Assembly: GCF_002260525.1 (NCBI RefSeq)
Contig: NZ_MRYI01000013.1
Location: 124,001 to 188,000, forward strand
Reading direction: 5' to 3'
Length of the DNA stretch: 64,000 nucleotides
Source: Hahella sp. CCB-MM4
GTDB lineage: Bacteria; Pseudomonadota; Gammaproteobacteria; Pseudomonadales; Oleiphilaceae
The position numbers were made by a program, and so were the translations under genes. Shown here piece by piece: positions 27,483-51,914 of the stretch. Below the pieces are notes generated by a model that worked only from the letters and a program-made list of their open reading frames with translations, was not told the origin of the DNA and did not search any database. How positions within the stretch are numbered: the stretch's first letter is position 1; each line of letters begins with the position of its first letter.

Positions 27483-27599
27483 GATGGACATGGCGCACCG
27501 AAATAAGTTTCCGCGACATCTCCGCGACCTTTTCAGGCAAGCCTAAAAATAAGATGAATACATAAAAAGAATAAACAAAAAGAATTTAATGGAAACGAT

Positions 27600-28406: not shown

Positions 28407-28419
28407 GGTATAGCACACT

Positions 28420-30402: not shown

Positions 30403-30410
30403 CTTTACCT

Positions 30411-30510
30411 GAGTCCGGATATGGCTCTGTCAGAGTCCGAATATAGCTTTGTCAGAATCAGGATATAAGTTTGTCAGAGTCCGGATAGAGTTCATCAAAA
30501 GCCGGATAGG
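30411..30510. repeat. 22-bp tandem repeat between atuF and atuG, about 4.5 copies
   Basis: Units start at 30411, 30433, 30455 and 30477, each opening GAGTCCGGATAT or a close variant and ending in TCA; a partial fifth begins at 30499. No unique spacers separate the units, so this is not a CRISPR array. Confidence 0.85.
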
Positions 30511-30566
30511 CGAAAAGAACCGGGAAATGTTCCCAACCCCAGATAACCCAAAGATTTGTATACCCC

Positions 30567-31397
30567 ATGAAAAACCTGAAAAACAAAACCATCATTATTA
30601 CTGGCGGCAGCCGCGGCATCGGACGTTCCATGGCTCTGAAGTTTGCAGCAGACGGCGCTAACATCGTTCTGGCAGCTAAATCTGCAGAGCCCCATCCCAA
30701 GCTCCCCGGCACCATTTACAGCGTGGCAGAGGAAGTCGAGGCAGCAGGAGGTAAGGCACTGCCAATACAGATTGATGTTCGCGATGAAGAAAGTCTGAAA
30801 ACCATGGCTCAGGCCGCCGCTGAAAAGTTTGGCGGCATTGATGTGGTAATCAACAACGCCGGTGCCATCAAGCTAAGCGGTGTTGAACATACGCCCTTAA
30901 AGCGCGTCGACCTGATGTATCAGATCAATACCCGAGCGGTTATCGCCACCGCCCAGGCAGCATTGCCCTGGCTGAAAAAGTCTGAGGATGCACACATTCT
31001 CAACCTGTCACCGCCGCTAAATCTGGATCCAAAATGGTTCGCCCAATATTCCCCCTACACCATGACGAAATACAGCATGTCCATGCTGACACTGGGCATG
31101 TCTCAGGAATTCAAACGATATGGTATTTCCGTGAACTCCCTCTGGCCACGGACGCTGATAGCCACTGCAGCAGTGGAGTTCGAGGCAGGCAATAAAAAGG
31201 CGCTGGATCGCGCCCGTAAGCCTGAAATGATGGCGGATGCCGCCTACACTCTGTTCACTTCAGAAACGCCACATTCCGGCGAATGGCTGATTGATGAAGA
31301 GATTCTGAGACAACATGGCATGACCGAGTTTGAGCACTACCGCTATCAGCCGGATTCATCAGACTCCCTGATGACAGACCTGTTTGTTGATGAATAA
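30567..31397 (+). CDS. atuG: Short-chain dehydrogenase of the HSDL2-like type
   Basis: 276 aa SDR: TGGSRGIGRSMALKFAADG (about 12-30), the NNAGAI motif, and an active site with NLSPPLNL and YSPYTMTKYSMS (Tyr-x3-Lys in the usual order). The AAKSAEPHPKLPGTIYS segment is characteristic of the HSDL2-like group to which AtuG belongs. The predicted role is oxidation of a hydroxyacyl-CoA or alcohol intermediate of terpene breakdown. The ATG at 30567 follows 164 bp after atuF, so an internal promoter is possible. Confidence 0.88.
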   Translation: MKNLKNKTIIITGGSRGIGRSMALKFAADGANIVLAAKSAEPHPKLPGTIYSVAEEVEAAGGKALPIQIDVRDEESLKTMAQAAAEKFGGIDVVINNAGAIKLSGVEHTPLKRVDLMYQINTRAVIATAQAALPWLKKSEDAHILNLSPPLNLDPKWFAQYSPYTMTKYSMSMLTLGMSQEFKRYGISVNSLWPRTLIATAAVEFEAGNKKALDRARKPEMMADAAYTLFTSETPHSGEWLIDEEILRQHGMTEFEHYRYQPDSSDSLMTDLFVDE

Positions 31398-31507
31398 TAC
31401 TGTTCGGTGGACAATGAATCTGTCCTGACGAATCATGACGGCTACCAATAATAAAAGCTTCGCATACAAAGCAACCTATAAATATAAAAGCGAAAAAAGG
31501 TATACAC

Positions 31508-33358
31508 ATGACTGCCGCAATATCACAGGAGCAGTCAGATCGCATTTCCCCGCTGGATGTGGTCCGACAGCTGCCTTTTATTACCAAGCGCCTCCCCTCT
31601 ATTGCCAAGGGGTATTACTTTTATGCTCTATTGAAGGCCGATAAACCTCTCGCGGTGGGAAACATCGTTGAACAGAATGCCGACAAATACGGGCACCGGC
31701 CTGCGGTTTACTATCAGGATTCCGTACTCACCTATCGGGAGCTGAATGCCTGGGCCAACCAGGTCGCACACTATCTGGCCGCAAGAGGCATCGGAAGAGG
31801 AGATGTCATTGCTCTGGCGGTGGAAAACCGTCCTGAGCTTCTGGCCGTTCTCATTGGCGCTCTCAAGCTGGGAGCCGCCTGCGCCATGATCAACACCTCT
31901 CAACGAGGACATGTACTGGCCCATAGCCTGAAGCTCACTAAACCCAAGCTGATCGTCGTTGGAGAGGAACAGCTTAGCCATTTTGAATCCGCCAGGAACG
32001 AAGTCAACTTTATAACATCCGATAATCTCCTGTATCTTGCAGATCGCGACACCCGAGTTGATCCGGGTACCGCCCCTGCCGGATTCATCAACTTAGCCGA
32101 AGCCGTTGAACACTATTCCGAGATCAATCCGGTAGTCGATGATCGCCCTGTAGCCGGTGATACCGCCGTCTATTTGTTTACTTCAGGGACCACCGGACTC
32201 CCCAAGGCAACCCCGTGCAGTCATCTCAAATGGTTCCGGGCCATGGGCGGACTGGGTCACATGTCCCTCTCCCTGACTCCCGATGACGTCATGTATATCA
32301 CTTTACCGCTGTATCACGGAACAGGACTGGTGGTGTGCTGGGGCGCCACACTGCTGACAGGCGCTTCGATTGTTATTCGCCGCAAGTTTTCCGCCTCAGA
32401 ATTCTGGGCAGACATCCGCAAGTACCAGGCAACATGCTTCGGCTATGTGGGAGAACTCTGCCGCTATTTGTTAAACCAGCCCCCTCAAAAGGACGACCCC
32501 CATCATACGCTCCGGAAAATGGTTGGAAATGGTTTACGTCCCTCCATCTGGCGGCAGTTCAAGCAACGCTTTGGCATCGAACAGATTTCCGAATTGTACG
32601 GCGCCAGCGAAGGAAATATTGGTTTCAGCAATTTTCTGAATCTGGACAATACCGTCGGTTTTTCCACAGCGCCTTTTGCTCTGGTCAAATTCCATGAAGG
32701 TACTCGTGAGCCGATCCGAAATGCCAAAGGCAAACTGGAAAAAGTGGCTAAAGGGGAACCCGGCCTGCTACTCGGGAAAATTACCGATCAATGGGCCTTT
32801 GAGGGTTACACACAGACGGAAGAAACAGAGAAAGCCATCGTGCGCGGGGCCTTTGATCGCAATGACGCCTGGTTCAATACCGGTGATGTGTTGAGGGAAA
32901 TCGGCTGCCGCCATCTGCAGTTTGTCGATCGGATGGGCGATACCTTTCGCTGGAAGGGAGAAAATGTTTCCACCACCGAGGTAGAAAACACGCTTGATCG
33001 TTTTGGCGATATCAGTGAAGCCATCGTTTATGGAGTTGAAATTCCAGGCACCAACGGAAAAGCAGGGATGGCCACCATTGTGTCGAGGGACGGCTCACAA
33101 CAGATGGACATGGAAAAGCTGCTGACCTACCTGCAACAAGAGCTTCCTGCCTATGCAATTCCGGTATTTATCCGACTTACGCAATCCATTGAGAAGACCG
33201 GGACCTTTAAATACCGAAAAGTCGATCTGAAAGAAGCCGGATACCAATTGAACCGTGAAGGTGATCAGGTATATGTCTATCTTCCCGGCACCCATCATTA
33301 TCAGGAGTTAACATCAGCTCTGATCAGGGATATCGAAGCCGGGCAATATCGATTCTAG
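31508..33358 (+). CDS. atuH: Very-long-chain-type acyl-CoA synthetase (AtuH-like)
   Basis: 616 aa AMP-forming synthetase of the FATP/VLCS-like group. Key motifs: YLFTSGTTGLPKATPC (about 220-235), YGASEGNIGF, NTGDVLREIGCRHLQFVDRMGDTFRWKGENVSTTEVE and a C-terminal KTGTFKYRKVDLKEAGY with the catalytic Lys. AAAAAGG precedes the ATG at 31508. In Pseudomonas AtuH is the last gene of the cluster and probably activates citronellate or geranate to the CoA ester. It ends the atu operon here too. Confidence 0.9.
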   Translation: MTAAISQEQSDRISPLDVVRQLPFITKRLPSIAKGYYFYALLKADKPLAVGNIVEQNADKYGHRPAVYYQDSVLTYRELNAWANQVAHYLAARGIGRGDVIALAVENRPELLAVLIGALKLGAACAMINTSQRGHVLAHSLKLTKPKLIVVGEEQLSHFESARNEVNFITSDNLLYLADRDTRVDPGTAPAGFINLAEAVEHYSEINPVVDDRPVAGDTAVYLFTSGTTGLPKATPCSHLKWFRAMGGLGHMSLSLTPDDVMYITLPLYHGTGLVVCWGATLLTGASIVIRRKFSASEFWADIRKYQATCFGYVGELCRYLLNQPPQKDDPHHTLRKMVGNGLRPSIWRQFKQRFGIEQISELYGASEGNIGFSNFLNLDNTVGFSTAPFALVKFHEGTREPIRNAKGKLEKVAKGEPGLLLGKITDQWAFEGYTQTEETEKAIVRGAFDRNDAWFNTGDVLREIGCRHLQFVDRMGDTFRWKGENVSTTEVENTLDRFGDISEAIVYGVEIPGTNGKAGMATIVSRDGSQQMDMEKLLTYLQQELPAYAIPVFIRLTQSIEKTGTFKYRKVDLKEAGYQLNREGDQVYVYLPGTHHYQELTSALIRDIEAGQYRF

Positions 33359-36567: not shown

Positions 36568-38301
36568 TTAACGGGATTTCGGCTTGCGTGGCGGACGACG
36601 ATCCGATCCACGACCTCTGCTGCTTCCACTGCCCCCACGGGTATCCGGCTTCATTTTCATGGGCTGCTGTTTCACCCGGACCTTTTGCATATGCTGCAGC
36701 ACATCGCCCGGCATACCTTGTGGCAGGTCTACCAATGAGAAATTCTCGTGAATAGCGATATGGCCGATATGACGGGATTCGATTCCTGATTCATTCGCAA
36801 TGGCTCCCACGATATCGCCCGGAGTCACATGATGCTTTCTGCCAACTTCAATACGGTAACATTGCATCGGCACTTCATCGCGACCACGGCCACCGCGCTC
36901 TCCCCTTTCGCCACGCTCGCGCCGACGGGATTTACGGTCACCACCATCGCGTCGGAAATCCTTGTCGTGCTTGGGCAGTTCTCTCAGGATCGGGAACAGA
37001 GGCTGTTCAACCTGCAGTTGAAATGCCAGAGCCGCTGCGACATCTTCCATCGTCATTTCGTGTTCCTGGGCAAATGTCAGTACGATGTCTTTGATTCGGC
37101 TGAAGTCCTGGTTTTCCAGAGTGGACAGGAGATTATCCTGGAACTGTTGAATCCGGTTCGTACTGATCTGCTCAGCAGAAGGCGCTTCGTAAGGTGTCAA
37201 CGCCTGCTTGGTAGCCCGCTCAATATCGCGCAGCAATCTGCGTTCCTTGGGCGCGGCAAACAGTATGGCTTTCCCTTCCCGCCCGGCACGTCCGGTACGA
37301 CCGATACGGTGTACGTAGGCTTCAGTGTCGTATGGAATATCGTAGTTCATTACCAGGCTGATACGCTCTACGTCCAATCCGCGAGCTGCGACATCCGTGG
37401 CGATAACGATATCCAGCAGACCTTTCTTCAGACGGTCGATGGTCTGTTCACGGATCTTCTGGGTCTGATCCCCATTCAGGGCTTCAGCGGCATAGCCACG
37501 TGCCTGCAGCTTTTCCGCCAGTTCCACGGTAGCAGACTTGGTGCGCACGAAGATGATCATGCCATCAAAGGTTTCCACTTCAAGAACCCGTGTCAGGGCA
37601 TCCAGTTTGTGGGAATTGTCTACCATCAATACAAATTGACTGATTCGTTCTACGGTTGAAGTCTTAGCGGCAATACGGACTTCTTTAGCGCCCTTGAGAT
37701 ATTGCTCTGCAACCCGCTTGATTGCCGGCGGCATGGTCGCCGAGAACAAGGCATACTGACAATCGCCCGGCGCGTTGGAAAGAATCTCTTCCACGTCATC
37801 AATGAAGCCCATGCGAAGCATTTCGTCAGCCTCATCCAGTACCACTGCACTGATTGCTGACAAATCAAGGCTCTTACGCTGCAAATGGTCCAGAACCCGG
37901 CCAGGTGTTCCCACCACAACCTGAACACCGCGTTTCAATGAACGCAATTGTCCGCGCATGTCCTGCCCGCCATATATGGGCAACACGCTGAATTCAGGCA
38001 AATACTTTGAGTAGCTCTTAAAAGCTTCTGCGACCTGGATGGCCAGTTCCCTGGTAGGAGCCAGAACAATAATCTGGGGTGAGTTGATCGATGGGTCCAG
38101 ACGATTCAACAAAGGCAAAGCAAAAGCAGCCGTTTTACCGGTACCGGTCTGGGCGACGCCCAGAATGCTTTCGCCTTGTAACAAAAGGGGAATACTCTGG
38201 GCCTGAATGGGAGAGGGCTGCTCATAGCCCACATCTTTCAATGCGGACAAAATAGGTGCGGAAAGACCAAGAGTAGCAAAATCTAGTGAATCGTCGGACA
38301 T
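36568..38301 (-). CDS. deaD: DEAD-box RNA helicase, DeaD/CsdA type
   Basis: 577 aa from the ATG at 38301 (MSDDSLDFATLGLS), where the Q-motif phenylalanine falls correctly; an upstream frame to 38349 only reads through an inverted repeat. Helicase motifs are complete: AQTGTGKTAAF, PTRELA, GTPGR, DEADEM, SAT, VRTKSA, ARGLDVERI and HRIGRTGRAGR. A C-terminal basic RERGERGERGGRG stretch, a DbpA-type RNA-binding domain (about 470-545) and an SR/RG-rich tail follow. The family unwinds structured RNA in ribosome assembly and cold adaptation. The region upstream holds a long-arm inverted repeat. Confidence 0.94.
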   Translation of the reverse strand: MSDDSLDFATLGLSAPILSALKDVGYEQPSPIQAQSIPLLLQGESILGVAQTGTGKTAAFALPLLNRLDPSINSPQIIVLAPTRELAIQVAEAFKSYSKYLPEFSVLPIYGGQDMRGQLRSLKRGVQVVVGTPGRVLDHLQRKSLDLSAISAVVLDEADEMLRMGFIDDVEEILSNAPGDCQYALFSATMPPAIKRVAEQYLKGAKEVRIAAKTSTVERISQFVLMVDNSHKLDALTRVLEVETFDGMIIFVRTKSATVELAEKLQARGYAAEALNGDQTQKIREQTIDRLKKGLLDIVIATDVAARGLDVERISLVMNYDIPYDTEAYVHRIGRTGRAGREGKAILFAAPKERRLLRDIERATKQALTPYEAPSAEQISTNRIQQFQDNLLSTLENQDFSRIKDIVLTFAQEHEMTMEDVAAALAFQLQVEQPLFPILRELPKHDKDFRRDGGDRKSRRRERGERGERGGRGRDEVPMQCYRIEVGRKHHVTPGDIVGAIANESGIESRHIGHIAIHENFSLVDLPQGMPGDVLQHMQKVRVKQQPMKMKPDTRGGSGSSRGRGSDRRPPRKPKSR

Positions 38302-38704
38302 TAACAAAAAACCTGCGAGGGATTTGTGCTGCATATCGAGAGACGACAATCGTCTGGTGACTGCGGGCGGTTAAAAAATGGTCGCTTATTGTACAGATCC
38401 AGTACCTGGATTGATAGCACAAATTGTAAAGCCAAGCATTTATTTAGCCTTCCTGGCATTATTTCCGCCTTCCATTAACCGCAAATCACCATCCCTTTGT
38501 CCTGAATTGACATTCCATGGTCAACTAACGTTCCTTCAATCATCCCTGTCCTTCCATGGCCGATTGTCGTCTCTCGATATGCAACACAGTCCCGGCAGAT
38601 TAAAGAGATCAAAAAAACTACTGAACCGAAACTAAAAATACTCGTGTGTGAATCCTGGCTTGCTTGTGAAGCTAAATAGTCATCCGGCTTATACAGCCAC
38701 CAGA
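38302..38704. other. deaD upstream region
   Basis: 403 bp of non-coding sequence between deaD and the 48-aa gene, both minus strand. It contains the 28-bp inverted repeat (38325-38352 and 38561-38588) and near-repeats of CTTCCATGG. A long structured leader would be in keeping with cold-shock-type helicase genes. Confidence 0.5.
38325..38588. repeat. 28-bp inverted repeat pair upstream of deaD
   Basis: The segment 38325-38352 is the reverse complement of 38561-38588 with one mismatch (core CGATTGTCGTCTCTCGATAT). The arms are 208 bp apart, and both lie in the deaD leader or promoter area. Similarity fades quickly outside the arms. Confidence 0.8.
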
Positions 38705-38851
38705 TCACTTAATAGGCTCCACCAACACCAGACGCATACTGCGGCCGGCAAAGATTTTATCGAGTACGTTTTGCAGGTCTGCCACGCTTTCGCTCTGGAT
38801 ACGGAAACGAAATTTGGTGCCTTTGGAAGTGAATGCGTTGATACGAAACAT
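38705..38851 (-). CDS. 48-residue conserved-looking small protein
   Basis: A short minus-strand frame starts at the ATG at 38851, which has AGGAG at a good distance upstream, and ends at a TGA at 38705. The product has about 48 residues, begins MFRINAFTSKGTKFRF and looks folded: alternating strand-like segments (TKFRFRIQ, MRLVLVEP) around an amphipathic helix (SVADLQNVLDKIF). It is rich in Arg and Lys. I recognise no family. It sits between deaD and the ethylene-forming-enzyme homologue on the same strand, 105 bp past the latter, and could be co-transcribed. Confidence 0.65.
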   Translation of the reverse strand: MFRINAFTSKGTKFRFRIQSESVADLQNVLDKIFAGRSMRLVLVEPIK

Positions 38852-38955: not shown

Positions 38956-40029
38956 TCAGAACATTTCGGCTACTGACTCGACCAGATGTTGTTTCTCCCC
39001 ACTTCGCATTGCTTCCAGCAAAGCGAGAGAACCGTTGCTGATGATCCGCCTGGTTGCCTCCCTCTCCGGGTAGCACCTCATAAACATATTGGTAAAATGA
39101 GTGCCGTAATGAATGGACTCGCCACTTTTCCCATTCAGAGGCCTGACGATGGTTTCAAAACCGGGTTCATGAAAATAGGCCAGTGCATAACGTTCCCTGA
39201 CGGCATCAAGTTCAACTTTATGGGGTGTCGAAAGAAGGTAGCTATCAGTCAGGAATTGGAGAATGTCGCCGGGAAATACCGTCAATACACCAGGCATCGG
39301 CATCACCAGATTCCAGGGTTGTTTGTCGCCATACATCCCGGCAGTGCTTTCCGTCGTCAGCCAGTTGCGATTTCTTTTTTCACCTTCAACCGGTGGACGG
39401 ATATAGAGCCCCGGCACCTCTTCCTGAGCAGCAATAACCAACATTCCATAATCAGTATGGGCACCAATTCCCCGACTGGACGCATCCGTCCCGGCAGCTG
39501 CAAACCGCAGAACCCTCATATGATGCCAACCATTTTGGGCAAGATCTGCCAGGGCGTTGAGATCACTTAGCCCCAGTCCCAGCGCAATCAACCTGAGAAG
39601 CTTGTCACCTATAGACCCTAATCCACCCATAAACGATTTCATGGCGAGTTCATACTCCGAATCAGGCCAAGGCACCGGTCCATGACAGGGCCACTGGGCT
39701 TTCGCCCGCCAATCGTCTTTCGGAATATCCGGACAGATGGTAAAAATTTCTGATTGGTCTACTTTCCCTGCTGTGATCTCTTCGCCACGAGAGACGTAAC
39801 CAGAAAAGGAATACTGGCTGATACAGGCCGCTTTTTGCGTCAGCGGCCTGCTGAAGAACCGCTTACTGGCCTCAAAAGCCCGCTTCGTTATCTGCTTCTG
39901 TTCAGCCTCTGTGTTGATTTGAAATATGCCATCCTGCCGCCAAGCCTGGATCATGTCCCGTCCAAGCTTGATATTGGATGATGTCGTGGAAATAGAAGTG
40001 GGGAGCCGGAAAGTTTGCAGATTACTCAT
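38956..40029 (-). CDS. efe: Ethylene-forming enzyme homologue (2-oxoglutarate/Fe(II)-dependent oxygenase)
   Basis: 357 aa from the ATG at 40029, whose N-terminus MSNLQTFRLP matches the remembered start of P. syringae EFE (MTNLQTFELP); AGAGG precedes it. Similarity extends along the whole chain, for example SGYV-xRGEEITAGK, AQWPCHGPVPWP, GWHHMRVLRF, RGIGAHTDYG, GLYIRPPVEGEKRNRNWL and HFTNMFMRCYP. Iron ligands His191, Asp193 and His270, the 2-oxoglutarate Arg280 and the arginine-site residues Glu84, Thr86, Arg172, Tyr194 and Arg318 are all present. The family turns 2-oxoglutarate into ethylene with L-arginine as cofactor and also hydroxylates arginine to guanidine and pyrroline-5-carboxylate. 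No obvious arginine or guanidine genes are adjacent. Confidence 0.92.
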   Translation of the reverse strand: MSNLQTFRLPTSISTTSSNIKLGRDMIQAWRQDGIFQINTEAEQKQITKRAFEASKRFFSRPLTQKAACISQYSFSGYVSRGEEITAGKVDQSEIFTICPDIPKDDWRAKAQWPCHGPVPWPDSEYELAMKSFMGGLGSIGDKLLRLIALGLGLSDLNALADLAQNGWHHMRVLRFAAAGTDASSRGIGAHTDYGMLVIAAQEEVPGLYIRPPVEGEKRNRNWLTTESTAGMYGDKQPWNLVMPMPGVLTVFPGDILQFLTDSYLLSTPHKVELDAVRERYALAYFHEPGFETIVRPLNGKSGESIHYGTHFTNMFMRCYPEREATRRIISNGSLALLEAMRSGEKQHLVESVAEMF

Positions 40030-40080
40030 CATCGTCCTCTGATAATTCACCAGTTCAGGCAAAACCGGAACGTACTTCAC

Positions 40081-40293
40081 TTACTCTTCAGTGATAACGC
40101 CATCCAATTTCTCGCCCCATGGTGCTAGCTCATGAAGGACGTTATTACGACAAAGACCCTTGGTTAGATCCATGATGTAGAGGATGTCTAACCTCATCTC
40201 TGAATTATCGTACTGCCCACCTCGATAAGGCCACTTAAAATCGGCGGATATTGCAAAATTGAACACCTGGTCACCTTGACCACTCACAAACAT
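40081..40293 (-). CDS. Short hypothetical frame upstream of the ethylene-forming-enzyme homologue
   Basis: A 70-codon frame on the same strand ends about 50 bp before the oxygenase start. The product is mixed in composition and has no motif I recognise; no Shine-Dalgarno precedes the first ATG at 40293, and an internal ATG at codon 33 is no better. It may be a small gene, a remnant, or chance. Confidence 0.25.
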   Translation of the reverse strand: MFVSGQGDQVFNFAISADFKWPYRGGQYDNSEMRLDILYIMDLTKGLCRNNVLHELAPWGEKLDGVITEE

Positions 40294-40390
40294 ACTTACA
40301 TAAGTAATCGGTAACGAAATCTATACAGTCATAATGAGGCGCTTGTTCATACGAATTCGAGAGTCGCGGGCGGGAATGAATCCTTTTAGC

Positions 40391-41296
40391 TCAATGATGG
40401 TGCTCTATATCTCGACAATTCTCGGAGATCTGCTCAAACTCAAACGTCGTGTGAGCTAGTGCATAGCCGCTTAGTGTATCTGCTATGTCTCCTTTGATCG
40501 CCGTTTGAACCTCCGTGGATATGGGCTTATCCAGCTCCAGATGGGCGGTCAGTACGTGCTTTTCGCCATCCAGAGACCACAAATGAAGGTGGTGGATGGC
40601 CCTGATATGTTCAATTTCCAGCAATTTATCCATGATCTCCTGGCGCAGCTTCCGATCTGGCACCGCCTGCAGAAACAGAAAGAGGGTTTTAATCACATGC
40701 CGCACCACATTGGACAGGATGAACAGCGTGAAAACGATCGATAGAAGCGGATCGAGAATCGGCCAATCGGCGAACAACAATACGACACTGATAATCAGCA
40801 CCGCCAGCCAGCCGAGCACATCTTCCAGCAAGTGCCAGTTCAACAGCTGCTCGTTCAGGGTTTTGCCTTTACTGACTTTCAACGCGGCGAATCCGTTTAC
40901 CGCGACTCCCAGAATGGCCAGCCAGAACATTCCTTGGGCATGAGGCATTTCCGGAGCCATTAATCGGGGAATGGCCATGGATAATACCCATACAGAGCCA
41001 ATAATAAGAATGCCGCCGTTAACCAAAGCCGCCAGCAGCGAGAATCGCCGGTACCCATAACTGAATCTGGAATCTGCCTGCCGGCCGCTTAGCTTCTGCA
41101 TTATCCAGGCAAACGCGATGGCCAGAGCATCACCGAGATCATGTACGGCATCAGCCATAATAGCGGTACTGTTGGTTAACCAGCCCCCCACAAACTCGAT
41201 CAGGGCAAATGTGGCATTCAACCAGAACGCCAAGGCAATTCGCCCGCTGCTTGCGTCGTCGTCCACGTGGGAATGATGATGGTGATGCGAAGACAT
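40391..41296 (-). CDS. Cation diffusion facilitator (CzcD/ZitB-type zinc exporter)
   Basis: 301 aa with a His-rich N-terminus (SSHHHHHSH), six predicted helices and the transport-site pairs of CDF proteins in helices 2 and 5 (ADAVHDLGDALAIA; LLEDVLGWLAVL). A second His-rich tail and a cytoplasmic ferredoxin-like domain (about 205-300) complete the usual form. The family exports Zn2+, Cd2+ or Co2+ by proton exchange at the inner membrane. It follows the VOC gene by 20 bp on the same strand, so the two probably form an operon. Confidence 0.9.
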   Translation of the reverse strand: MSSHHHHHSHVDDDASSGRIALAFWLNATFALIEFVGGWLTNSTAIMADAVHDLGDALAIAFAWIMQKLSGRQADSRFSYGYRRFSLLAALVNGGILIIGSVWVLSMAIPRLMAPEMPHAQGMFWLAILGVAVNGFAALKVSKGKTLNEQLLNWHLLEDVLGWLAVLIISVVLLFADWPILDPLLSIVFTLFILSNVVRHVIKTLFLFLQAVPDRKLRQEIMDKLLEIEHIRAIHHLHLWSLDGEKHVLTAHLELDKPISTEVQTAIKGDIADTLSGYALAHTTFEFEQISENCRDIEHHH

Positions 41297-41316
41297 TGTT
41301 ATATAGTCCCCGTCAA

Positions 41317-41721
41317 TCAGTTTTCGAGTTGCTTAAGGAAGGTTTGCTCATCGCGGATTCCGACACTGTTACCATCCGGGTCCGTGATGTTAATGGTCGT
41401 CCCCCAGGGGTAACGATTGATCTTGGGTTCAATTCCCCAATTCTTCAATGACACCGCTGCCTGTTCAATATCTCTGACGTTAAAACGAAGACGAGTGGGG
41501 TTTTCTGCCATCGTTTTTTCTCCATCTTTTTTTTCTCCATCCTTTGTCATACCGCCAGTTTCAATCATCAGGTATGCGCCGTAAAAGTCCAGACAAGCCA
41601 GCCTGAAATCGCCCTCCTGGGATTCAAACAGAATCGGCAGGCCGAACAGCTGATGATAGAAGTTTACACACTCATCGAATCGTTCGACTCTCAATATGAT
41701 TCCTGTCCGTTCAATCTCCAT
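41317..41721 (-). CDS. VOC-family (glyoxalase/bleomycin-resistance-like) protein
   Basis: 134 aa with the beta-alpha-beta-beta-beta repeats of VOC proteins: IILRVERFDECVNFYHQLFGLPI at the start, TRLRFNVRDIEQAAVSLKNWG in the middle and DPDGNSVGIRDE at the end. Metal-site residues of glyoxalase I are not clearly all present, so the reaction is unknown. A central linker has two tandem KDGEK units (about residues 60-69), encoded by a T/C-rich repeat. Probably co-transcribed with the CDF exporter downstream. Confidence 0.82.
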   Translation of the reverse strand: MEIERTGIILRVERFDECVNFYHQLFGLPILFESQEGDFRLACLDFYGAYLMIETGGMTKDGEKKDGEKTMAENPTRLRFNVRDIEQAAVSLKNWGIEPKINRYPWGTTINITDPDGNSVGIRDEQTFLKQLEN

Positions 41722-41870
41722 TCAGATGTCCTTTCAACCTATCTATTCAATGGGTCTGTTCTCTAATCTACGACAGCAGGTAGAGGGTTACAAACGACTT
41801 TCTTCTGCCAGCCATATGAGAGTAATATCTGACAAACCTGTCAAATATTTTTCCCATTCAAGGAGGCTTT

Positions 41871-42776
41871 ATGGACTATCCTCGTGACATGATCGGTTAC
41901 GGCAATCAGCCGCCCCATCCCCGTTGGCCGGGCAATGCCAGGCTGGCACTACAGTTTGTTGTTAATTACGAAGAAGGGGGTGAGAACTGTATCTTGCACG
42001 GTGATGCAGCCTCGGAAGCCTTCCTGTCTGAAATCGTCGGAGCACAGCCCCTCCAGGGTGTGCGCCATATGAACATGGAGTCCATTTATGAATACGGCAG
42101 TCGGGCAGGATTCTGGCGCCTGCACAGGTTATTCACCCGGTTTAACTTTCCGGTGACCGTATTCGGCGTGGCCACGGCTTTAGAGAGAAATCCTGAAGCG
42201 GTCGACGCCATGTTGGAAGCAGACTGGGAAATTGCCAGCCACGGACTTAAATGGATTGATTATCAATATATGTCTGAAGAGGAAGAGCGCAGCCATATCC
42301 TGCAGGCGATAGACATCCATGAACGGGTCACGGGCTCCCGCCCGTTGGGCTGGTATACCGGCAGAATGAGCCCTAATACCCGCCGTCTGGCAGTGGAAAC
42401 CGGTGAACTTCTGTATGATGCTGACTCATACGCAGATGACCTGCCCTACTGGCTGCATGACTTTGGAAAACCTCATCTGGTGGTTCCCTACACCCTGGAC
42501 ACCAATGACATGCGTTTTGCCACTAACCAGGGATTCAATAGCGGAGACCAGTTCTACACCTATCTCAAGGACAGTTTTGATGTTCTTTACGAGGAAGGAG
42601 CCACCGCCCCAAAAATGATGAGTGTCGGGCTACACTGTCGCCTGGTAGGTCGTCCGGGACGGCTGGCAGCATTGTCCCGATTCCTGGACTATGTGAGTCA
42701 GCATCAGGACGTTTGGGTCTGTCGACGCGTCGACATTGCCCGTCACTGGCACGATCATCACTACCCCGTCTCCTAA
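41871..42776 (+). CDS. puuE: Metal-independent-type allantoinase (PuuE, NodB-fold)
   Basis: 301 aa, opening MDYPRDMIGYGNQPPHPRWP, which is typical of PuuE; AAGGAGG precedes the ATG at 41871. The NodB-like deacetylase fold appears as FVVNYEEGGE, RAGFWRLHRLF, ASHGLKWIDY and GWYTGRMSPNTRRL. PuuE enzymes open the hydantoin ring of allantoin to allantoate in purine breakdown. No other ureide gene lies in the window, so the pathway role is inferred from the family alone. A clean terminator follows. Confidence 0.9.
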   Translation: MDYPRDMIGYGNQPPHPRWPGNARLALQFVVNYEEGGENCILHGDAASEAFLSEIVGAQPLQGVRHMNMESIYEYGSRAGFWRLHRLFTRFNFPVTVFGVATALERNPEAVDAMLEADWEIASHGLKWIDYQYMSEEEERSHILQAIDIHERVTGSRPLGWYTGRMSPNTRRLAVETGELLYDADSYADDLPYWLHDFGKPHLVVPYTLDTNDMRFATNQGFNSGDQFYTYLKDSFDVLYEEGATAPKMMSVGLHCRLVGRPGRLAALSRFLDYVSQHQDVWVCRRVDIARHWHDHHYPVS

Positions 42777-42787
42777 AAGTCCACCTT

Positions 42788-42818
42788 AGAGGGACAAACA
42801 AGATGGTCCCTCTTTTAT
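42788..42818 (+). terminator. Intrinsic terminator of the allantoinase gene
   Basis: AGAGGGAC (42788-42795) pairs with GTCCCTCT (42806-42813), followed by TTTTATT, 12 bp after the stop codon. Confidence 0.85.
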
Positions 42819-42822
42819 TCCT

Positions 42823-42915
42823 CAATCCTGAAGCTTTGCTATTTCTCAGTCCTGGCTTTGCTATTTCTCAGTCCTGGCTTTGCTATTTCTCAGTCCTGAA
42901 GCTTTGCCTATCCCT
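42823..42915. repeat. 22-25-bp tandem repeat, 4 copies
   Basis: Units with CAGTCCTGGCTTTGCTATTT begin at 42823, 42847, 42869 and 42891; the first and last carry extra bases. The array fills the gap between the allantoinase terminator and the stop of the convergent chemoreceptor. Confidence 0.85.
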
Positions 42916-44603
42916 CAGACCTGAAACTGCCTCAACAATACATTCAATTCAGCCGCCAAGGCTGAAAGCTCCGAAGCGATCTGCTGGTTCGTCTGCGTCG
43001 CCTCTGCCGTCGTTTCGGCTTCGGCCAGAATATTGACCAGATTTCGATTGATGCTCTCGCTGACCTGGGACTGCTCATCTGAAGCGGTGGCAACCTGAGC
43101 ATTGAGATGATTGATAAGACCTACCGCCTGGAGGATATCATCCAGGCAAGTTGCGGTACTTTGCGAATGCGACACGGTCTCTTCGCCCACATACTGACTG
43201 GATAACATAACTTCAACGGCTTCTTCGGACCCTTGTTGCAACCTCTCAATCATGAGTTGGATTTCTTCGGTACTACTTTGGGTTCGACTGGCAAGAGTTC
43301 TGACTTCATCAGCCACAACAGCAAACCCGCGCCCTTGGTCACCCGCCCGGGCAGCCTCAATCGCGGCGTTGAGAGCCAGAAGATTGGTCTGTTCGGCAAT
43401 TCCCCTTATCACGCCGAGGACGGAGACAATTTCCCCCACATGCCCTTTGAGATGCTCAATCACTCCTGATGCCTTACCTACTGAATCTACCAGTGATTGC
43501 ACCGATTCGGCTCCTCTGGCCACCACGTCCCTGACCTGGCCACAGTTGTCATTGGCAGAGCCTGCCGCTGAGGCTGCTTCAACAGCATTGCCCGACACCT
43601 GGAGGGCGGAAGCCGACATTTGATTCATGGCGGTCGATACCATGTCCGTCTGCTGTCGTTGCAGGCTGACTGACCGGGATATCTGTCCGGACAGCTCAGT
43701 GCCTTTTTCAGCCGCCTCGATGACTTTCATTGCTGTCTCTGAGGTCTTGCAAACCAATGCATGAACCTTGCTGACAAACAGGTTAAAGGCTGCCGCCAAT
43801 GATCCCAACTCATCGTTGGAATCCACATTAAGCCGCTGGGTCAGGTCACCATCCTCACTGGCAATATCGTTAAGCCTGTCAGTGACTTTCTGCAGGGGTT
43901 TGACAATGGTTCGGGTCACTGCCAATGACAGCCCAACCAAAACAATCGCCAGCGCAATTCCAAGTACCAGTGCAGACCGGATTATCGAGGCTAGCTGCTG
44001 GCGTTGCTCCTGCTCAAGCGCAGCAATCGTGTCATCGATGTCATCAATATAAAAACCGGTTCCCAGCATCCATTGAACATCAGGTAACCAGACGGCATAA
44101 CTTAATTTTGGAAATTGCCCTTCCTGCTTGAGCTTGGGCCAATCATACTCAACATACCCTCCGCCATTTTTCGCGACTGCTATCAACTCCTGAATGATGG
44201 CCACGCCCTTTTTCGACTTCAGCCCGATCAGATTCTTGCCAATAAGATTTTTCTTGGCGTGGGCAGTCACCGTACCGTCTTCAGAATATGCAAAAAAATA
44301 GCCGTCCTTGCCGAATCTGAGCGAACTGATTCGCTCCCCCAACGTCGCCTCTTCTCCTTTGCCTTCCCCTTTTCCTTCTACTTTCCCTTTCCCTTCTGCC
44401 AGCATTTGCTGAATCGCTGATTGGGCGAGCTGGGTATATTGTTTGAGTTCGGCTTTCTTTGCGGCCATGAGGCTTTGTCGGGTATCAGCCAGACTACGCT
44501 CAAACAACTGCTGCATACTGATCAAATTGAGAATACTGAATCCCAAGGTACTCAGCATAATTGTCGCGATCGCGAGAGTAATAATTTTGGTCTTAATAGT
44601 CAT
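42915..44603 (-). CDS. Methyl-accepting chemotaxis protein with single Cache sensor
   Basis: 562 aa from the ATG at 44603, eight bases after GAGGT. Helix 1 (about 5-27), a periplasmic sCache_2-type domain (about 35-190, [46 protein letters not shown]), helix 2 (about 200-222), HAMP (224-275) and the signalling hairpin tip ([35 protein letters not shown]). Before the Cache core there is an [14 protein letters not shown]-type repeat, encoded by C/T-rich repeats at about 44343-44402. Cache_2 receptors often sense organic acids or small amines; the ligand is unknown. It would feed a CheA elsewhere in the genome. Confidence 0.93.
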
Positions 44604-44660
44604 GATCATCACCTCAAATATCTTCAGGTGTTCAGGGCTTGCTGACAGTCCTCTATCCAG

Positions 44661-45281
44661 CTATCTGGCCAATCCCTTTTCGAATGCGTACCGGATAATT
44701 CCAAGAGAGCTCTGGGCACCAATCTTCTGCATGATATTGCGCTTATGGCTTTCCACGGTTCTAACGCTGATATTCAACTCCCTTGCCAGGTGTTTGTTAC
44801 TTAATCCGTTGGCAATCAGGCATACGATCCTGGTTTCACGATCGGTCAGAAAGCGGCCGTTGGGATGGCAACTGAACTCATGAAGAACCGAGAGCGCTAT
44901 CTCACAAAAGGCTGTTTTTCCGTGGTAGACACGCTTAATGGCGCTGATAAGATCCTGGCCATTGATATCTTTCAGCAGGTATCCCATTGCTCCACCGCGA
45001 ATGAGGTCCAATATGCCCTCGGGATCGTCGCTGATACAGAGAAAGATGAACCGTACCTGATCCATTTTTGCAGTGACGGATTCAAGCACGGCTAACCCTG
45101 GTTTATCCGGGGTGCTGGGGTCCATAATGACGATATCCGGCATTGCACTACGAATAAGTTCAAGTGCCCTGCTCCCGGATTCGGTTTCTCCAACAATATA
45201 TATGTCCTGATCCAGATCGATCCTTGCAGCCAGCCCTTCCCGGAAAATAGGGTGGTGATCAACAAGAAGTACTTTAATCAT
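44661..45281 (-). CDS. NarL/LuxR-family response regulator
   Basis: 206 aa from the ATG at 45281 (MIKVLLVDHHPIFREGL). Receiver domain with Asp54 in VIMDPSTPD as the phospho-acceptor and Lys in YLLKDING, then a LuxR-type helix-turn-helix (LTDRETRIVCLIANGLSNKHLARELNISVRTVESHKRNIMQKIG, about 145-190). No histidine kinase is next to it. It lies downstream of the orphan TRAP binding lipoprotein on the same strand (153 bp) and upstream of a chemoreceptor, so the trio may share a signal (inference). Confidence 0.92.
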   Translation of the reverse strand: MIKVLLVDHHPIFREGLAARIDLDQDIYIVGETESGSRALELIRSAMPDIVIMDPSTPDKPGLAVLESVTAKMDQVRFIFLCISDDPEGILDLIRGGAMGYLLKDINGQDLISAIKRVYHGKTAFCEIALSVLHEFSCHPNGRFLTDRETRIVCLIANGLSNKHLARELNISVRTVESHKRNIMQKIGAQSSLGIIRYAFEKGLAR

Positions 45282-45434
45282 CCTGTGACCCCGTATTTTT
45301 CGATGAATAGGTAGCGGCCACCAATGGTTCGGCATATCGGCGACCGCCAGATGGTGTGTGAGTGTCTATAGATAACGTTGAATCAAAGGTGCTCGAATGA
45401 TTCGCCGTCTAAGCAGACTCACAACGATTGAAAT

Positions 45435-46568
45435 TCAACCTCTGGGTTGACTATTGAGGTATGCCTGATCTGAAATTCGGGTCCACCGGCGGGCCTTCCA
45501 TTGGAAACGGGATTGGGAATCCAGAATTTCCTTGGCAAGGGGATCCTGTCCAGCCCGTACTTTGAGTAATTCTTCCGTAACATCGTACATGGCTTCAATC
45601 ACCTTGGGAGGAAAGGTACGGATCTTGACGCCGGGGTATTCCACCTGGATGGTGGACCAGTTCTGAGCACTTTCATAGGTTGACTGCACGTACATATCAA
45701 ACGCCGCTGTACGCATGGCAACTTTGAGTATCTTCTGCAGATGCCCGGGCAGGCGGTTCCAGCTGTCATTATTAATGAGAAACTGCAGCTCAGTACCAGG
45801 CTCGTGCCACCCGGTGTAGTAGTAGGGGGCAATTTCATGAAACCTCATCCCCAGATCAAGAGATGGTCCGACCCACTCCAACGCATCAATCTGTCCTTCC
45901 TTCATGGCTGCATATAACTCGTTCGGGGCGATATTCACCGGCTCGACACCAAGCTTCTGCAACACCTCACCGGCAAAGCCCGGCACTCGCATCCTAACGC
46001 CCTGAAAATCTTCCAGTGAATTAATTTCCTTACGAAACCAGCCACCCATCTGATTGCCGGTATTTCCTCCAGGGAAAGAAAGCAAATGGTGTTTACCGTA
46101 TACTTTCTGCATCAGCTCCATGCCACCGCCATGATAGAACCAGGCATATTGCTCCTGAGCCAGCATCCCAAAAGGTAAGGTGGTAAAAAAGAGGGTATTG
46201 GGATCAATGTCCTTCCAATAGTATGAGGCGGAATGCCCCATGTCGTATTTGCCGTCTTTCACCATATCAAAGATGCCGAATGGCTGGTGATGCTGATCAG
46301 CAGAAGTAATCTCGATGATCAGTTGGCCATCCGACAGCTCTTTCACCATTTGCGCAAAATTTGCGGTTGTTTCGGCAAATATTGGGGCTTTCTGCGTCCA
46401 GGACTGGGCCAGGGAAAGCTTATATACCGTCGGTTCAGGCGCTTTATTAGAGACAGGCACATCAGAAGCGATGGCTTTAGAAGTGGAATCATTGCAGCCG
46501 GATAATAAGACCGCAATCAACACAGAGAGAATTAACGCATTCAGTTTGCCAACTTGCACGGGATACAT
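45435..46568 (-). CDS. Orphan TRAP-type solute-binding lipoprotein (DctP family)
   Basis: 377 aa with a lipoprotein signal (LLSGC, lipid Cys about residue 25) and a full DctP fold: SLAQSWTQKAPIF, DMVKDGKYDMGHS, the central GVRMRVPGFAGEVLQKLGVEPVNIAPNELYAAMKEGQIDALEWVGP with the carboxylate-binding Arg. The YYWKDI and WVGPSLDLGMRFHEIAPYYY stretches resemble the group that binds aromatic or keto acids. No DctQ or DctM permease gene is present nearby. A membrane-anchored, permease-less binding protein beside a two-component regulator suggests signal capture rather than uptake (inference). Confidence 0.88.
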   Translation of the reverse strand: MYPVQVGKLNALILSVLIAVLLSGCNDSTSKAIASDVPVSNKAPEPTVYKLSLAQSWTQKAPIFAETTANFAQMVKELSDGQLIIEITSADQHHQPFGIFDMVKDGKYDMGHSASYYWKDIDPNTLFFTTLPFGMLAQEQYAWFYHGGGMELMQKVYGKHHLLSFPGGNTGNQMGGWFRKEINSLEDFQGVRMRVPGFAGEVLQKLGVEPVNIAPNELYAAMKEGQIDALEWVGPSLDLGMRFHEIAPYYYTGWHEPGTELQFLINNDSWNRLPGHLQKILKVAMRTAAFDMYVQSTYESAQNWSTIQVEYPGVKIRTFPPKVIEAMYDVTEELLKVRAGQDPLAKEILDSQSRFQWKARRWTRISDQAYLNSQPRG

Positions 46569-46802
46569 ATACGACCTACCTGTTTATATTTATTTTTTAG
46601 ATTCAGTCGAATCACGTTTTTGTCATTCGCAGCTCATGGTCACAATTCGAGCAGCCAGGAACAATCCGTATGAATGACCAAAATTTGCGCAGGAAGTACT
46701 TAGAAGGATGTTTGGGGAGGGTAGGTATTTGTACCTAGGTAGCTGTGGAGCAACGAGCGCCTGAAGGACTTATGTCAAGAATTCAGCAGTACGTAGTTTT
46801 TG

Positions 46803-46852
46803 CCAGCTTAGGGGCTTTTAGCAATAACCAGCTTAAAGGCTTTTAACAGCAG
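46803..46852. repeat. 25-bp tandem repeat, 2 copies
   Basis: Two adjacent copies starting CCAGCTTA at 46803 and 46828, sharing GGCTTTTA, with a few substitutions. Confidence 0.7.
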
Positions 46853-47078
46853 CAGCCTGATTCAAACACAGAAGCGCTTGCCAATCTAACCACTTTTTAC
46901 CAAATGACATCAGACTACTCCTATTAGCTCTTAGTCCAATCCAACTCATCCCTATCCCTTTCAGCCTTTCCTCTCATAACTCAGTTCGAATCTCCCCCCC
47001 TGGCCTAAGTGCAAACCCTGATTAGGTTTGCGTGCATTAACGGATGCCTGAGCAGCCCCATGTCGGATCAACCTAAAA

Positions 47079-47123
47079 AAAGCTCCCGGCACAGTCGACC
47101 GATGACTGATTGCCGGAAGCTTT
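47079..47123 (+). promoter_or_regulatory. Hairpin in the porin 5' leader
   Basis: AAAGCTCCCGGCA (47079-47091) and TGCCGGAAGCTTT (47111-47123) pair over 13 positions with one mismatch, around a 19-base loop. It lies 62 bp before the porin ATG, has no following U-run, and could be a regulatory RNA structure. Confidence 0.4.
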
Positions 47124-47184
47124 GACTGACTGGCGACCATCTCTGGTAGCCGGCACAAGCATAACTCTCTGACAGGAACAAAAC

Positions 47185-48231
47185 ATGAATAATATCCCTG
47201 CCATTTTTCTTCTGGGCAGCATGGCCTGTGCAACCTCCGCTCACTCCACACTGGTCGTTGATCTGCCCAACGATGCCAAACTGAGTTTTGGAGGCTATTT
47301 CAAACTCGATCTTCGTCATGTCAATGGTGACCTGGCATACCGGGACTTCTGGATCAGTAACAACGCCCCGGCAGAAGATACCGAAGAGACCCGGCTGAAT
47401 ATCAGAGAATCACGTTTCAATATTCACTATGATCAAGGGGACCTCCAAGGAACTCTCGAGTGGGACTTCTATGATGATCAGCAACCTGTTGGCGCAACGG
47501 AGAGTGTAACAGGCGGACATTCTCTCAGACTCAGACATGCATTTTTCAAATACGAAGACTGGCTGCTGGGACAGACATGGTCCACATTTATGCCTTTGGC
47601 CAGTATTCCAGAGGCCCTGGATTTTGGTGGGCCGCATGTTGCCCAAACCTTTGTGCGTCAATCACAGATCAGATATTCCCGGGACAGCCTGGAACTTGCC
47701 CTGGAAAATCCTTCCACTTTCAGCGGTGAAAGCCAGACTATTCCAGATGCAGTCGCCAGATATACCTTCAAAGGAACCTGGGGGCAGATAGGTGTAGCCG
47801 CCCTGCTCCGCAGTATGGAAGATTCAAATAACGATGGTGGCGCAGACGGTTTACAGCTCGGATACAACCTCCACGGAAAAATCAGTACCTTCGGAAAAGA
47901 TGATTTTCGCTTTTCCTACAACGGCGGAGCTCAGGGACGTTATACTGGCCCCGGTGCCAATATTGCGGATACCGCAGACGCCCATGGAGATATTCTCGAT
48001 ACAGAAGCCTACACGGCCGCTTACCGCCATTTCTGGACTGATTCCTTGCGCAGCAGTTTATACTACGGCCACATTGAGATTGACGACACAAGCGTCGACA
48101 GGTCTCATTGGGCAGTTAACCTGCTGCAGGATATCAGGCCCGGCTTCACTGTAGGGGGGGAGTTCGGGAACTACGAAACAGAATCAGGCGACGACGATTA
48201 TCTGCAATTTTCCGCTAAATATAGCTTTTAG
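47185..48231 (+). CDS. Outer-membrane porin, DcaP-like
   Basis: 348 aa with a signal peptide (MNNIPAIFLLGSMACATSAHS, about 1-20), an N-terminal strand DAKLSFGGYFKLDLRH, repeated amphipathic beta strands and a C-terminal YLQFSAKYSF ending in Phe, as needed for BAM recognition. The GQTWSTFMPLASIPEALDFGGP segment is typical of DcaP-type porins. Such trimeric porins take up small, often negatively charged solutes. AGGAA precedes the ATG. It is followed 90 bp later by a periplasmic binding-like protein. Confidence 0.85.
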   Translation: MNNIPAIFLLGSMACATSAHSTLVVDLPNDAKLSFGGYFKLDLRHVNGDLAYRDFWISNNAPAEDTEETRLNIRESRFNIHYDQGDLQGTLEWDFYDDQQPVGATESVTGGHSLRLRHAFFKYEDWLLGQTWSTFMPLASIPEALDFGGPHVAQTFVRQSQIRYSRDSLELALENPSTFSGESQTIPDAVARYTFKGTWGQIGVAALLRSMEDSNNDGGADGLQLGYNLHGKISTFGKDDFRFSYNGGAQGRYTGPGANIADTADAHGDILDTEAYTAAYRHFWTDSLRSSLYYGHIEIDDTSVDRSHWAVNLLQDIRPGFTVGGEFGNYETESGDDDYLQFSAKYSF

Positions 48232-48321
48232 GCTAATTGTTAACCCCTCCTCCAATTTGGCAAGCTATGCCAGCTTGCCATTTCTGGCAGGAGCGTAGTC
48301 AAATTGAGAAGTATAAAAACA

Positions 48322-49047
48322 ATGAAAAGCCCAGATGTACGCACCATCAAATACTGCCTGGTATTTCTGTTCATGATGATTGCCGGAAATGCAGTGTCCG
48401 ATCCTCTGGACTCCAAGCCTTTGGATTCCAAGTCTTTGGATTCCAGCCCCCTGAAGATCGGTATTATAGAAGCCGCACCCTGGGCTTATCTTGAAGGCTC
48501 TTCCTACACCCCGAAAGGATCTCTAGTCCTTTACGCCAGACAGCTATTCAATCAGCTTCAGATTAAGCACAAAATTCTGGTCCTTCCAAGCAAACGTCTC
48601 AACTATATGGCCGAAAAGGGTCAGTTGGATATTGCCATTGCCCTGGACGATGGGCGTATCCATCATTACATGAATCCAGTGAAGCTTCTTGAGTCTGTTG
48701 AAATATTAGCCCTGAGCCTGCGGGAGGACAGCCCTATTGAGCTGGAACTGACCAATCGCCCTCTGGATGTCATGCATGGCTATAAGACGGATCAGGATCA
48801 GCATAGCGTTTCTGTCGATATTAACAGTGCAGAGCAACTGTTTGCCTTGTTTGATGCCAAACGTATAGATAGTGGCTTCGGTTTAAAGCCCTTGCTGATG
48901 TATGGAGCCAACAACCGTCATCATGATCTGCAGTTGCGGCAAGCCCAGCCTGTTGGCTACGCCGATATCGTGATCTGGTCCAATCCTCATATAACAATGG
49001 AAATTTCGAGAAAGGTCAGGCCTCTGTCGCTATCCCTGAATATTTAA
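48322..49047 (+). CDS. Small periplasmic solute-binding-like protein
   Basis: 241 aa from the ATG at 48322; an upstream in-frame TTG at 48304 is less likely. A signal peptide (about 1-27) is followed by three tandem PLDSK-type units and then a single-domain version of the family-3 binding fold (KIGIIEAAPWAYLEGSS, KGQLDIAIALDDGRI, RIDSGFGLKPLLMYG). It is shorter than transport SBPs and lacks nearby transporter genes. Similar truncated binding proteins are common in marine Gammaproteobacteria near sensors; ligand unknown. The next genes, 360 bp on, form a chemosensory module. Confidence 0.7.
   Translation: MKSPDVRTIKYCLVFLFMMIAGNAVSDPLDSKPLDSKSLDSSPLKIGIIEAAPWAYLEGSSYTPKGSLVLYARQLFNQLQIKHKILVLPSKRLNYMAEKGQLDIAIALDDGRIHHYMNPVKLLESVEILALSLREDSPIELELTNRPLDVMHGYKTDQDQHSVSVDINSAEQLFALFDAKRIDSGFGLKPLLMYGANNRHHDLQLRQAQPVGYADIVIWSNPHITMEISRKVRPLSLSLNI
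48406..48450 (+). repeat. 15-bp in-frame tandem repeat, 3 copies
   Basis: CTGGACTCCAAGCCT, TTGGATTCCAAGTCT and TTGGATTCCAGCCCC encode LDSKP, LDSKS and LDSSP directly after the signal peptide. Confidence 0.85.
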
Positions 49048-49407
49048 TGAACGCAGTAAAGCTCATACTCCCTGAAGCATAACGATGCACCAAAGTGGAA
49101 ACTACCTACTTATTTCCAGCACCATTCAAATGCAATCTGTCATGACCTGATCCGCACCGTTAGTGTGCAATCTGATAATTCATCAATCCAGTCATCAGCA
49201 CAGCTCAAAATCACAACGACATTACTTCTCATATATCAGCAACTTATAAAACAATTACAATTCCTAACCAAGGCCATACATTAATTTTCCCAACTTGGTT
49301 CGCATTCTGCTTTGGCTAATCGACACGTCACATTCGGAGAGCCATCCGCCCCGACATAACAATAATCAGCGAATGTCCGTGAACGTTTAACATCAACGGA
49401 GAGAACC
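49048..49407. other. Promoter region of the PilJ-N/HPt kinase operon
   Basis: 360 bp, AT-rich, no credible frame on either strand and no strong palindrome seen. A GGAGAG precedes the kinase start at 49408. Confidence 0.5.
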
Positions 49408-51516: not shown

Positions 51517-51542
51517 ATCAGGGTGATAGCAGTGGAGGAACT

Positions 51543-51914
51543 ATGCTGAAACTGATGATTGTGGATGATTCCAATATCATCCGCCGGAAAATCGAGAGGG
51601 CCCAGCAAGGCTCACACATTCAAGTGGTCGCAACAGCCCGAAACGGGAACGATGCCCTGGCAGAGTTTAAAAAGCATCAGCCGGACGTGGTTACCATGGA
51701 CCTGACCATGCCGGAGATGGATGGTATCGAATGTATTGAGGAACTGATGAAGCTCAATCCGGAAACGCTGATTCTGGTCATCTCGGCCCTATCAGACAAA
51801 GCCACAGGCATCGAAGCTTTACATAAAGGCGCTCGCGGCTTTCTGTGCAAACCATTCGACGAAGAAAAATTGGGTAATGCTTTAAAGGAATTAACGGAGG
51901 GATTACATGTCTGA
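51543..51914 (+). CDS. CheY-like response regulator of the kinase-CheX operon
   Basis: 123 aa single receiver: IVDDSNIIR (acidic pocket), phospho-acceptor Asp53 in TMDLTMPEMDG, switch Ser in VISALSD, and Lys in FLCKPFD. GGAGGAACT precedes the ATG. The stop codon overlaps the CheX start by eight bases, so the two are translationally coupled. It is the obvious phospho-acceptor of the upstream HPt and the substrate for the CheX phosphatase. Confidence 0.93.
   Translation: MLKLMIVDDSNIIRRKIERAQQGSHIQVVATARNGNDALAEFKKHQPDVVTMDLTMPEMDGIECIEELMKLNPETLILVISALSDKATGIEALHKGARGFLCKPFDEEKLGNALKELTEGLHV

Follow-up and report, generated by a model that had tools for sequence, protein, structure and literature searches.

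Homologues of the ethylene-forming enzyme (EFE) are known across several phyla. PsEFE, from the plant pathogen Pseudomonas savastanoi/syringae pv. phaseolicola PK2, is represented by the structures 5v2y, 6vp4 and 5lun. Ethylene formation was shown for five EFEs, from three cyanobacteria, a myxobacterium and Ralstonia, according to PMC9101411, in which the enzymes of Scytonema sp. NIES-4073 and Nostoc sp. ATCC 43529 were found active; ethylene from the myxobacterial EFE had been reported earlier (PMC4202696). Because active enzymes were demonstrated in these two studies, an EFE outside plant pathogens is no longer new. The EFE of Penicillium digitatum is reported to carry Asn at the position of Cys317 (PMC12060275). 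Here we describe an EFE homologue encoded in a 64,000-nucleotide stretch of the genome of Hahella sp. CCB-MM4 (contig NZ_MRYI01000013.1, positions 124,001 to 188,000), referred to below as the window. By each sequence and predicted-fold test run, the window protein is a genuine EFE, and its gene very probably encodes a working dual-reaction enzyme yielding ethylene and guanidine. The supporting facts are an intact gene, placement within the family, retention of the metal, 2-oxoglutarate and arginine residues, a matching predicted fold and the same locus in two species. The Hahella EFE is a further member of a known, widely scattered bacterial family and not a new kind of system; since homologues are already known from several phyla, it widens a known distribution without founding a new class.

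Family identity and active-site residues

An initial annotation of this DNA had placed a full-length, 357-residue EFE homologue at 38956..40029. This was right: the open reading frame (ORF) runs on the minus strand, which the annotation had left unstated, from an ATG at 40029 to a stop at 38956 with no internal stops, and it is the single EFE copy in the 6.66 Mb genome. A phmmer comparison with the sequences of solved structures returned 6vp4, an EFE crystal sequence, as the top match (E = 4.4e-137). The best nine solved sequences were EFE chains (E 4.4e-137 to 1.1e-133), followed by P. digitatum EFE (E 7.7e-112; 9eir and 9eis, 51-52% identical to the window EFE over 307-309 aligned residues), after which the significance fell steeply to a reconstructed EFE ancestor (9ovh, E 3.5e-24) and to the best natural non-EFE chain (6jyv, E 4.8e-18). 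With a sequence match at E = 4.4e-137, a chance resemblance to EFE is excluded. General-purpose models were less specific, with Pfam assigning PF14226 (DIOX_N) and PF03171 (2OG-FeII_Oxy), both general 2-oxoglutarate oxygenase domains, and no NCBIfam model matching at E 0.001.

The window protein is 60% identical to PsEFE across 339 residues and shares its length, fold, start, metal triad and 2-oxoglutarate arginine. For the residue comparison, the window protein was aligned with PsEFE residues 1-340, with the relatives from 41 of the 43 EFE-grade loci (all but L005 and L043) and with 8 of the 28 distant oxygenases. Those that the initial annotation had named (H191, D193, H270, R280, E84, T86, R172, Y194, R318 and C319) align exactly with PsEFE H189, D191, H268, R277, E84, T86, R171, Y192, R316 and C317. 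The Fe(II) triad is thus kept, as are all four 2-oxoglutarate residues (PsEFE R277, R171, L173 and F175; R280, R172, L174 and F176 here), the L-arginine pocket (PsEFE E84, T86, D91, Y192, F314, R316, C317 and Y318) and the supporting residues Y306, E285 and F310. Altogether, 22 of the 23 iron, 2-oxoglutarate and arginine-site residues listed for 6VP4 in PMC9101411 are the same as in PsEFE. The sole change is V85I, and the same source gives Ile at this position in the Ralstonia and Nostoc enzymes, both active. R316, T86, Y318 and Y306, the last a supporting residue of the arginine site (PMC11025135, PMC9101411), are present in all 41 EFE relatives; among the 8 distant oxygenases the counts are 1, 1, 1 and 0, respectively. 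The cyanobacterial EFEs of Scytonema sp. NIES-4073 and Nostoc sp. ATCC 43529, 62-64% identical to the window EFE, have the same pocket. Seven of the ten positions that PMC4202696 correlates with ethylene formation are kept, including A199, V212/E213 and I304, mutation of which reduced ethylene in that study; the site called R236 there is Pro in 6vp4 as numbered here and was not used.

A predicted model of the window protein, compared with solved structures by VIA-align, shows the EFE fold. Following the EFE mechanism set out in PMC10467617, the protein would be an L-arginine-binding oxygenase dependent on Fe(II) and 2-oxoglutarate. Fe(II) would be held by H191, D193 and H270, 2-oxoglutarate would be chelated with the help of R280 and R172, and L-arginine would be bound through E84, T86, Y194 and R318. 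In the main reaction with O2, 2-oxoglutarate would be converted to ethylene and three CO2/bicarbonate; in the side reaction, L-arginine would be hydroxylated at C5 as 2-oxoglutarate is converted to succinate, and the hydroxyarginine would break down to guanidine and pyrroline-5-carboxylate. The residues themselves are seen in the sequence, while every catalytic step, and with it both reactions, is carried over by analogy from what has been established for other EFEs. The possible production of ethylene and guanidine suggested in the initial annotation is backed by the sequence, the pocket residues, the tree described below and the predicted model.

Distribution, inheritance and gene start

Of the 71 loci that one scan of GTDB representative genomes found, 43 were EFE-grade, with best-segment identities of 55-72%, and the other 28 were at 23-32% identity. 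The EFE-grade loci span Cyanobacteriota, Actinomycetota (Frankia, Streptomyces, Lentzea, Kutzneria and others), Myxococcota and Pseudomonadota. The closest relative, at 72% identity, is the homologue of Hahella ganghwensis DSM 17046 (contig NZ_AQXX01000120.1; L002). Counting the window's own genome, an EFE occurs in 2/7 genomes of the genus and 2/163 of the family (E <= 1e-30), and in 1/390 sampled genomes of the order (E <= 1e-60). The description of EFE as rare and patchily distributed stands; the surprise attached to it was overstated, given 43 EFE-grade loci in four phyla and several family members reported to make ethylene (PMC9101411, PMC4202696). Among the open-licence papers listed, supplementary tables excluded, no report of an EFE in Hahella was found, and neither PMC9101411 nor PMC12329707 mentions the word Hahella in its main text.

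A 51-row tree, a check proposed at the outset, placed the window protein inside the EFE branch: 43 EFE rows, including the window protein and PsEFE, were split from the 8 distant oxygenase rows at 100/100, and the two Hahella proteins paired at 100/100. The Hahella pair was grouped with six cyanobacteria at 92/94, and, measured by path, the cyanobacterial EFEs above come next after H. ganghwensis, although they belong to another phylum and the grouping is not firm. It was not recovered in a second tree (39 rows, no outgroup, with L005 added and five near-duplicate or partial rows dropped), in which a single clade of Hahella and Pseudomonas was not rejected (p-AU 0.36). A cyanobacterial donor is no more than one possibility. 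Mobile sources yielded little, with no EFE relatives among 50,697 phage records at E 1e-20, nine stretches of viral contigs matching a pattern, none of which was confirmed, and one relative, at 39%, on a Streptomyces clavuligerus plasmid (72,556 plasmid records).

The EFE gene occupies one and the same locus in the two Hahella species, and nothing points to a recent acquisition. Positions 38996-52793 of the window are colinear with the H. ganghwensis locus, barring genes found on one side only, in the order porin-like protein, TRAP-type solute-binding protein, response regulator, PuuE, glyoxalase-like protein, cation diffusion facilitator (CDF) transporter and EFE. A chemotaxis receptor gene (42915-44612) is present in the window and missing from the H. 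ganghwensis locus. The DeaD helicase is not next to EFE in H. ganghwensis, where different genes lie downstream, so the synteny stops at the EFE stop codon. Like EFE, the CDF gene (E <= 1e-40) and the PuuE gene (E <= 1e-60) occur in 2/7 genomes of the genus, as would be expected had the block been inherited within one branch of the genus. EFE has a GC content of 50.9%, much like the 50.1% of the window as a whole. The two Hahella EFE genes differ by 19% at codon positions 1 and 2 and by 61% at position 3, a pattern showing, at the sequence level, that EFE is under purifying selection between the two species. Recent arrival on a mobile element is not supported: the locus is shared with H. ganghwensis, the GC content matches, and no transposase or phage gene was found by a Pfam scan of ten neighbouring proteins, nor any tRNA in the window. 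The absence of a flanking mobile element or guanidine exporter noted in the initial annotation holds for these ten proteins; the "arrival" that it left unexplained need not be recent.

The start codon was also considered. The longest mechanical ORF begins at GTG 40080, 17 codons 5' of ATG 40029. The H. ganghwensis frame extends just 16 codons 5' of the start, without ATG, GTG or TTG, and an ATG stands at the same aligned start position in 39/43 EFE-grade loci (the exceptions are L007, with TTG, L035, L039 and the partial L042). On these grounds ATG 40029 is the likely start, and an N-terminal extension from GTG 40080 is not supported. The 50 columns abutting the start codon are the same as in H. 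ganghwensis at 44 positions, compared with 23/50 in the next 50 columns upstream. This conservation possibly reflects a ribosome-binding site together with a regulatory leader. The predicted RNA fold of this stretch is barely stronger than that of shuffled sequence (z -0.71 and -0.93), and a structured RNA leader is not supported.

Several observations concern EFE genes elsewhere. In Streptomyces stelliscabiei DSM 41803 (L043, 8001-9025) the EFE is spread over two reading frames in its record, unlike the other fetched Streptomyces copies, which have no stop within the match. Seven of ten Streptomyces loci (L014, L020, L022, L028, L029, L034 and L043) have in common a motif that includes a short inverted repeat (CCCCTCA..GGGGGTAGTGGA) within 60 bases before the start, possibly an operator or leader; L016 has a variant, and L013 and L039 are without it. 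In Pseudomonas brassicacearum CDVBN10 (L018) the CrcZ small RNA gene (7383-7786) precedes the EFE, which starts at 8001, by ~210 bases. At ten Lentzea loci (L021, L025-L027, L030-L033, L036 and L038) the EFE lies within a conserved stretch beside what we read as an arginine biosynthesis region, with an argC-like gene ~4.9 kb upstream (10/10) and a pheT-like gene ~4.6 kb downstream (9/10), both named from the ORFs; no open-licence literature linking ethylene-forming enzyme with Lentzea was found.

Guanidine handling and alternative explanations

EFEs are reported to release guanidine, which is toxic to cells unable to remove it (PMC12186494, PMC8390497). A genome-wide search, likewise proposed in the initial annotation, found no guanidine-I, -II or -III riboswitch in the window's genome or in H. 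ganghwensis (up to 150 candidates scored per genome; guanidine-IV was not searched for). Nor was a clear Gdx exporter found in the window's genome, its single SMR protein scoring higher with EmrE (107 bits) than with 6wk5 (61.7 bits), which we take to be Gdx-Clo. The one arginase-family gene in this genome is read here as probably the histidine-pathway HutG, because an imidazolonepropionase-like ORF adjoins it, and no clear guanidinase-like gene was found. No urea/guanidine carboxylase scored above the TIGR02712 cut-off (1303.85) in either genome; the best scores, 527 bits in the window's genome and 530 bits in H. ganghwensis, covered the biotin-carboxylase part only. No open-licence literature linking H. 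ganghwensis with guanidine was found.

Another genome of the genus, G010, has no EFE and carries two guanidine-I riboswitches and one guanidine-II riboswitch, together with a TIGR02712 match of 1332 bits, above the cut-off (model positions 1-860 to the contig end, and 876-1200 on another contig). One guanidine-I riboswitch, the guanidine-II riboswitch and the carboxylase match share one 21.7-kb contig, the guanidine-II element lying ~90 bases upstream of the carboxylase match; the second guanidine-I is on another contig (contigs C149 and C94; L074, L075, L085 and L101). Across the seven genomes of the genus, EFE occurs in two, guanidine riboswitches in one and neither in four, a contrast that may be due to chance. 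Among EFE-bearing genomes (L040 not included), guanidine-I was matched in 7/43 at E 0.001 and was above cut-off in 6/43 with stricter filters, so that EFE carriers are not always without guanidine sensors. No guanidine riboswitch lay near EFE in 43 loci (L002-L044; Rfam at gathering thresholds, mostly +-8 kb, some loci clipped at contig ends), where Rfam matches numbered three in all (CrcZ, 5'ureB sRNA and a tRNA). The window itself gave no Rfam match. It is conceivable, if unlikely, that the genus is split, two EFE species making guanidine and ethylene and the sister species G010 sensing and degrading guanidine. A similarly doubtful elaboration has the EFE species shedding guanidine through a novel exporter or by leakage, with guanidine, not ethylene, as the ecologically relevant product.

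Several points weigh against a working, ethylene-forming enzyme. The predicted model is weakest at key sites, with a mean pLDDT of 60 in the lid block 81-90 and of 55 in block 181-190, which immediately precedes the Fe-binding H191 and D193. Three of the ten ethylene-correlated positions are changed (E235Q, F278Y and I322E); according to PMC4202696, F278Y, E235D and I322V had no significant effect, and the tested set given there omits E235Q and I322E. C280 of PsEFE, at which the change to Phe decreased activity in the same study, is Leu here; Cys is also missing in 41/41 relatives. EFE evolves faster than each of six neighbours set beside it (dN 0.22 vs 0.07-0.19), the known guanidine-handling genes were not found in the window's genome, and efe transcripts were not detected in a seagrass metatranscriptome as described in PMC5863793, which hence lends no support for marine expression.

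The changed positions could point to an arginine 5-hydroxylase of the EFE family with a dominant guanidine/pyrroline-5-carboxylate reaction and negligible ethylene. Such enzymes have been described, since the EFE-like Din11 of Arabidopsis gives guanidine without ethylene (PMC11018352) and a Penicillium chrysogenum homologue yielded no ethylene (PMC4202696). The near-complete identity of the ligand residues to those of PsEFE, and the ethylene made by cyanobacterial relatives at 62-64% identity, argue the other way, and the plant 2-ODD-C23 enzymes are just 26% identical to EFE (PMC11018352); we regard this explanation as rather improbable. Still less credit can be given to a 2-oxoglutarate oxygenase with a different substrate that merely resembles EFE. 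Most such genes are auto-annotated as "isopenicillin N synthase family oxygenase" (PMC9101411), and the Pfam and NCBIfam results are no more specific; the family placement and pocket described above favour EFE.

Least probable, and very much so, is an intact yet silent or functionally idle remnant of a past transfer. The presence of EFE in two of seven genomes of the genus, the lack of a specific common neighbour among EFE groups and the missing guanidine-handling genes would suit a remnant; the open frame, the conservation of the leader and the purifying selection seen between two species that share the locus would not. A working dual-reaction EFE thus remains the preferred explanation.

The surrounding locus and significance

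The features of the EFE locus are collected in Table 1. The contig, from a Hahella-group genome, is 200 kb long, and a CDF transporter gene adjoins EFE, a setting unlike that of PsEFE in a plant pathogen. No conserved EFE-specific partner gene emerged across EFE groups: in a blastp search of neighbouring mechanical ORFs, including spurious frames (+-6 kb, 43 loci, E 1e-15), 12 neighbour families were common to at least two EFE groups (response regulators in five groups, P450-like proteins in three and ten others in two), and none looked specific. Among the matches listed, the other families that recurred across many loci came from Lentzea alone.

Table 1. Features of the EFE locus (window coordinates)
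Feature	Position	Strand	Basis or remark
EFE coding sequence, 357 aa, ATG start	38956..40029	minus	phmmer, Pfam, pocket residues, tree, predicted model
Conserved leader abutting EFE start codon, with AGAGGA stretch resembling a ribosome-binding site	40030..40079	minus	H. ganghwensis comparison
CDF efflux transporter, upstream neighbour	40391..41296	minus	also beside EFE in H. ganghwensis
Glyoxalase-like protein, in block common to H. ganghwensis	41317..41721	minus	
Allantoinase PuuE, in block common to H. ganghwensis	41871..42776	plus	TIGR03212, 551.8 bits
DeaD-type RNA helicase, other flank of EFE	36568..38349	minus	not beside EFE in H. ganghwensis

Two further observations concern the window. 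Between EFE and the DeaD helicase (38705-38851, minus strand) there is an open frame of 48 codons (MFRINAFTSKGTKF...) that has a good ribosome-binding-like site. Positions 20684-33358 hold a run of genes that we read as resembling a cluster for the breakdown of acyclic terpenes (atu) or branched acyl-CoA: a TetR-type regulator, an AtuA-like protein, an SDR, an acyl-CoA dehydrogenase, a carboxyltransferase, an enoyl-CoA hydratase, a biotin carboxylase/BCCP, a further SDR and an acyl-CoA synthetase. A scan of eight of the proteins at E 1e-60 backs the labels of five; the remaining labels, like the name atu, come from our reading.

If the enzyme is active, Hahella species would be producers of ethylene and guanidine outside plant pathology. 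They would also be a natural source of guanidine for bacterial riboswitches, and would let one ask why arginine and 2-oxoglutarate are spent in this way. A 60%-identical enzyme with a few altered second-shell positions would, in addition, provide material for structure-function work on bio-ethylene.
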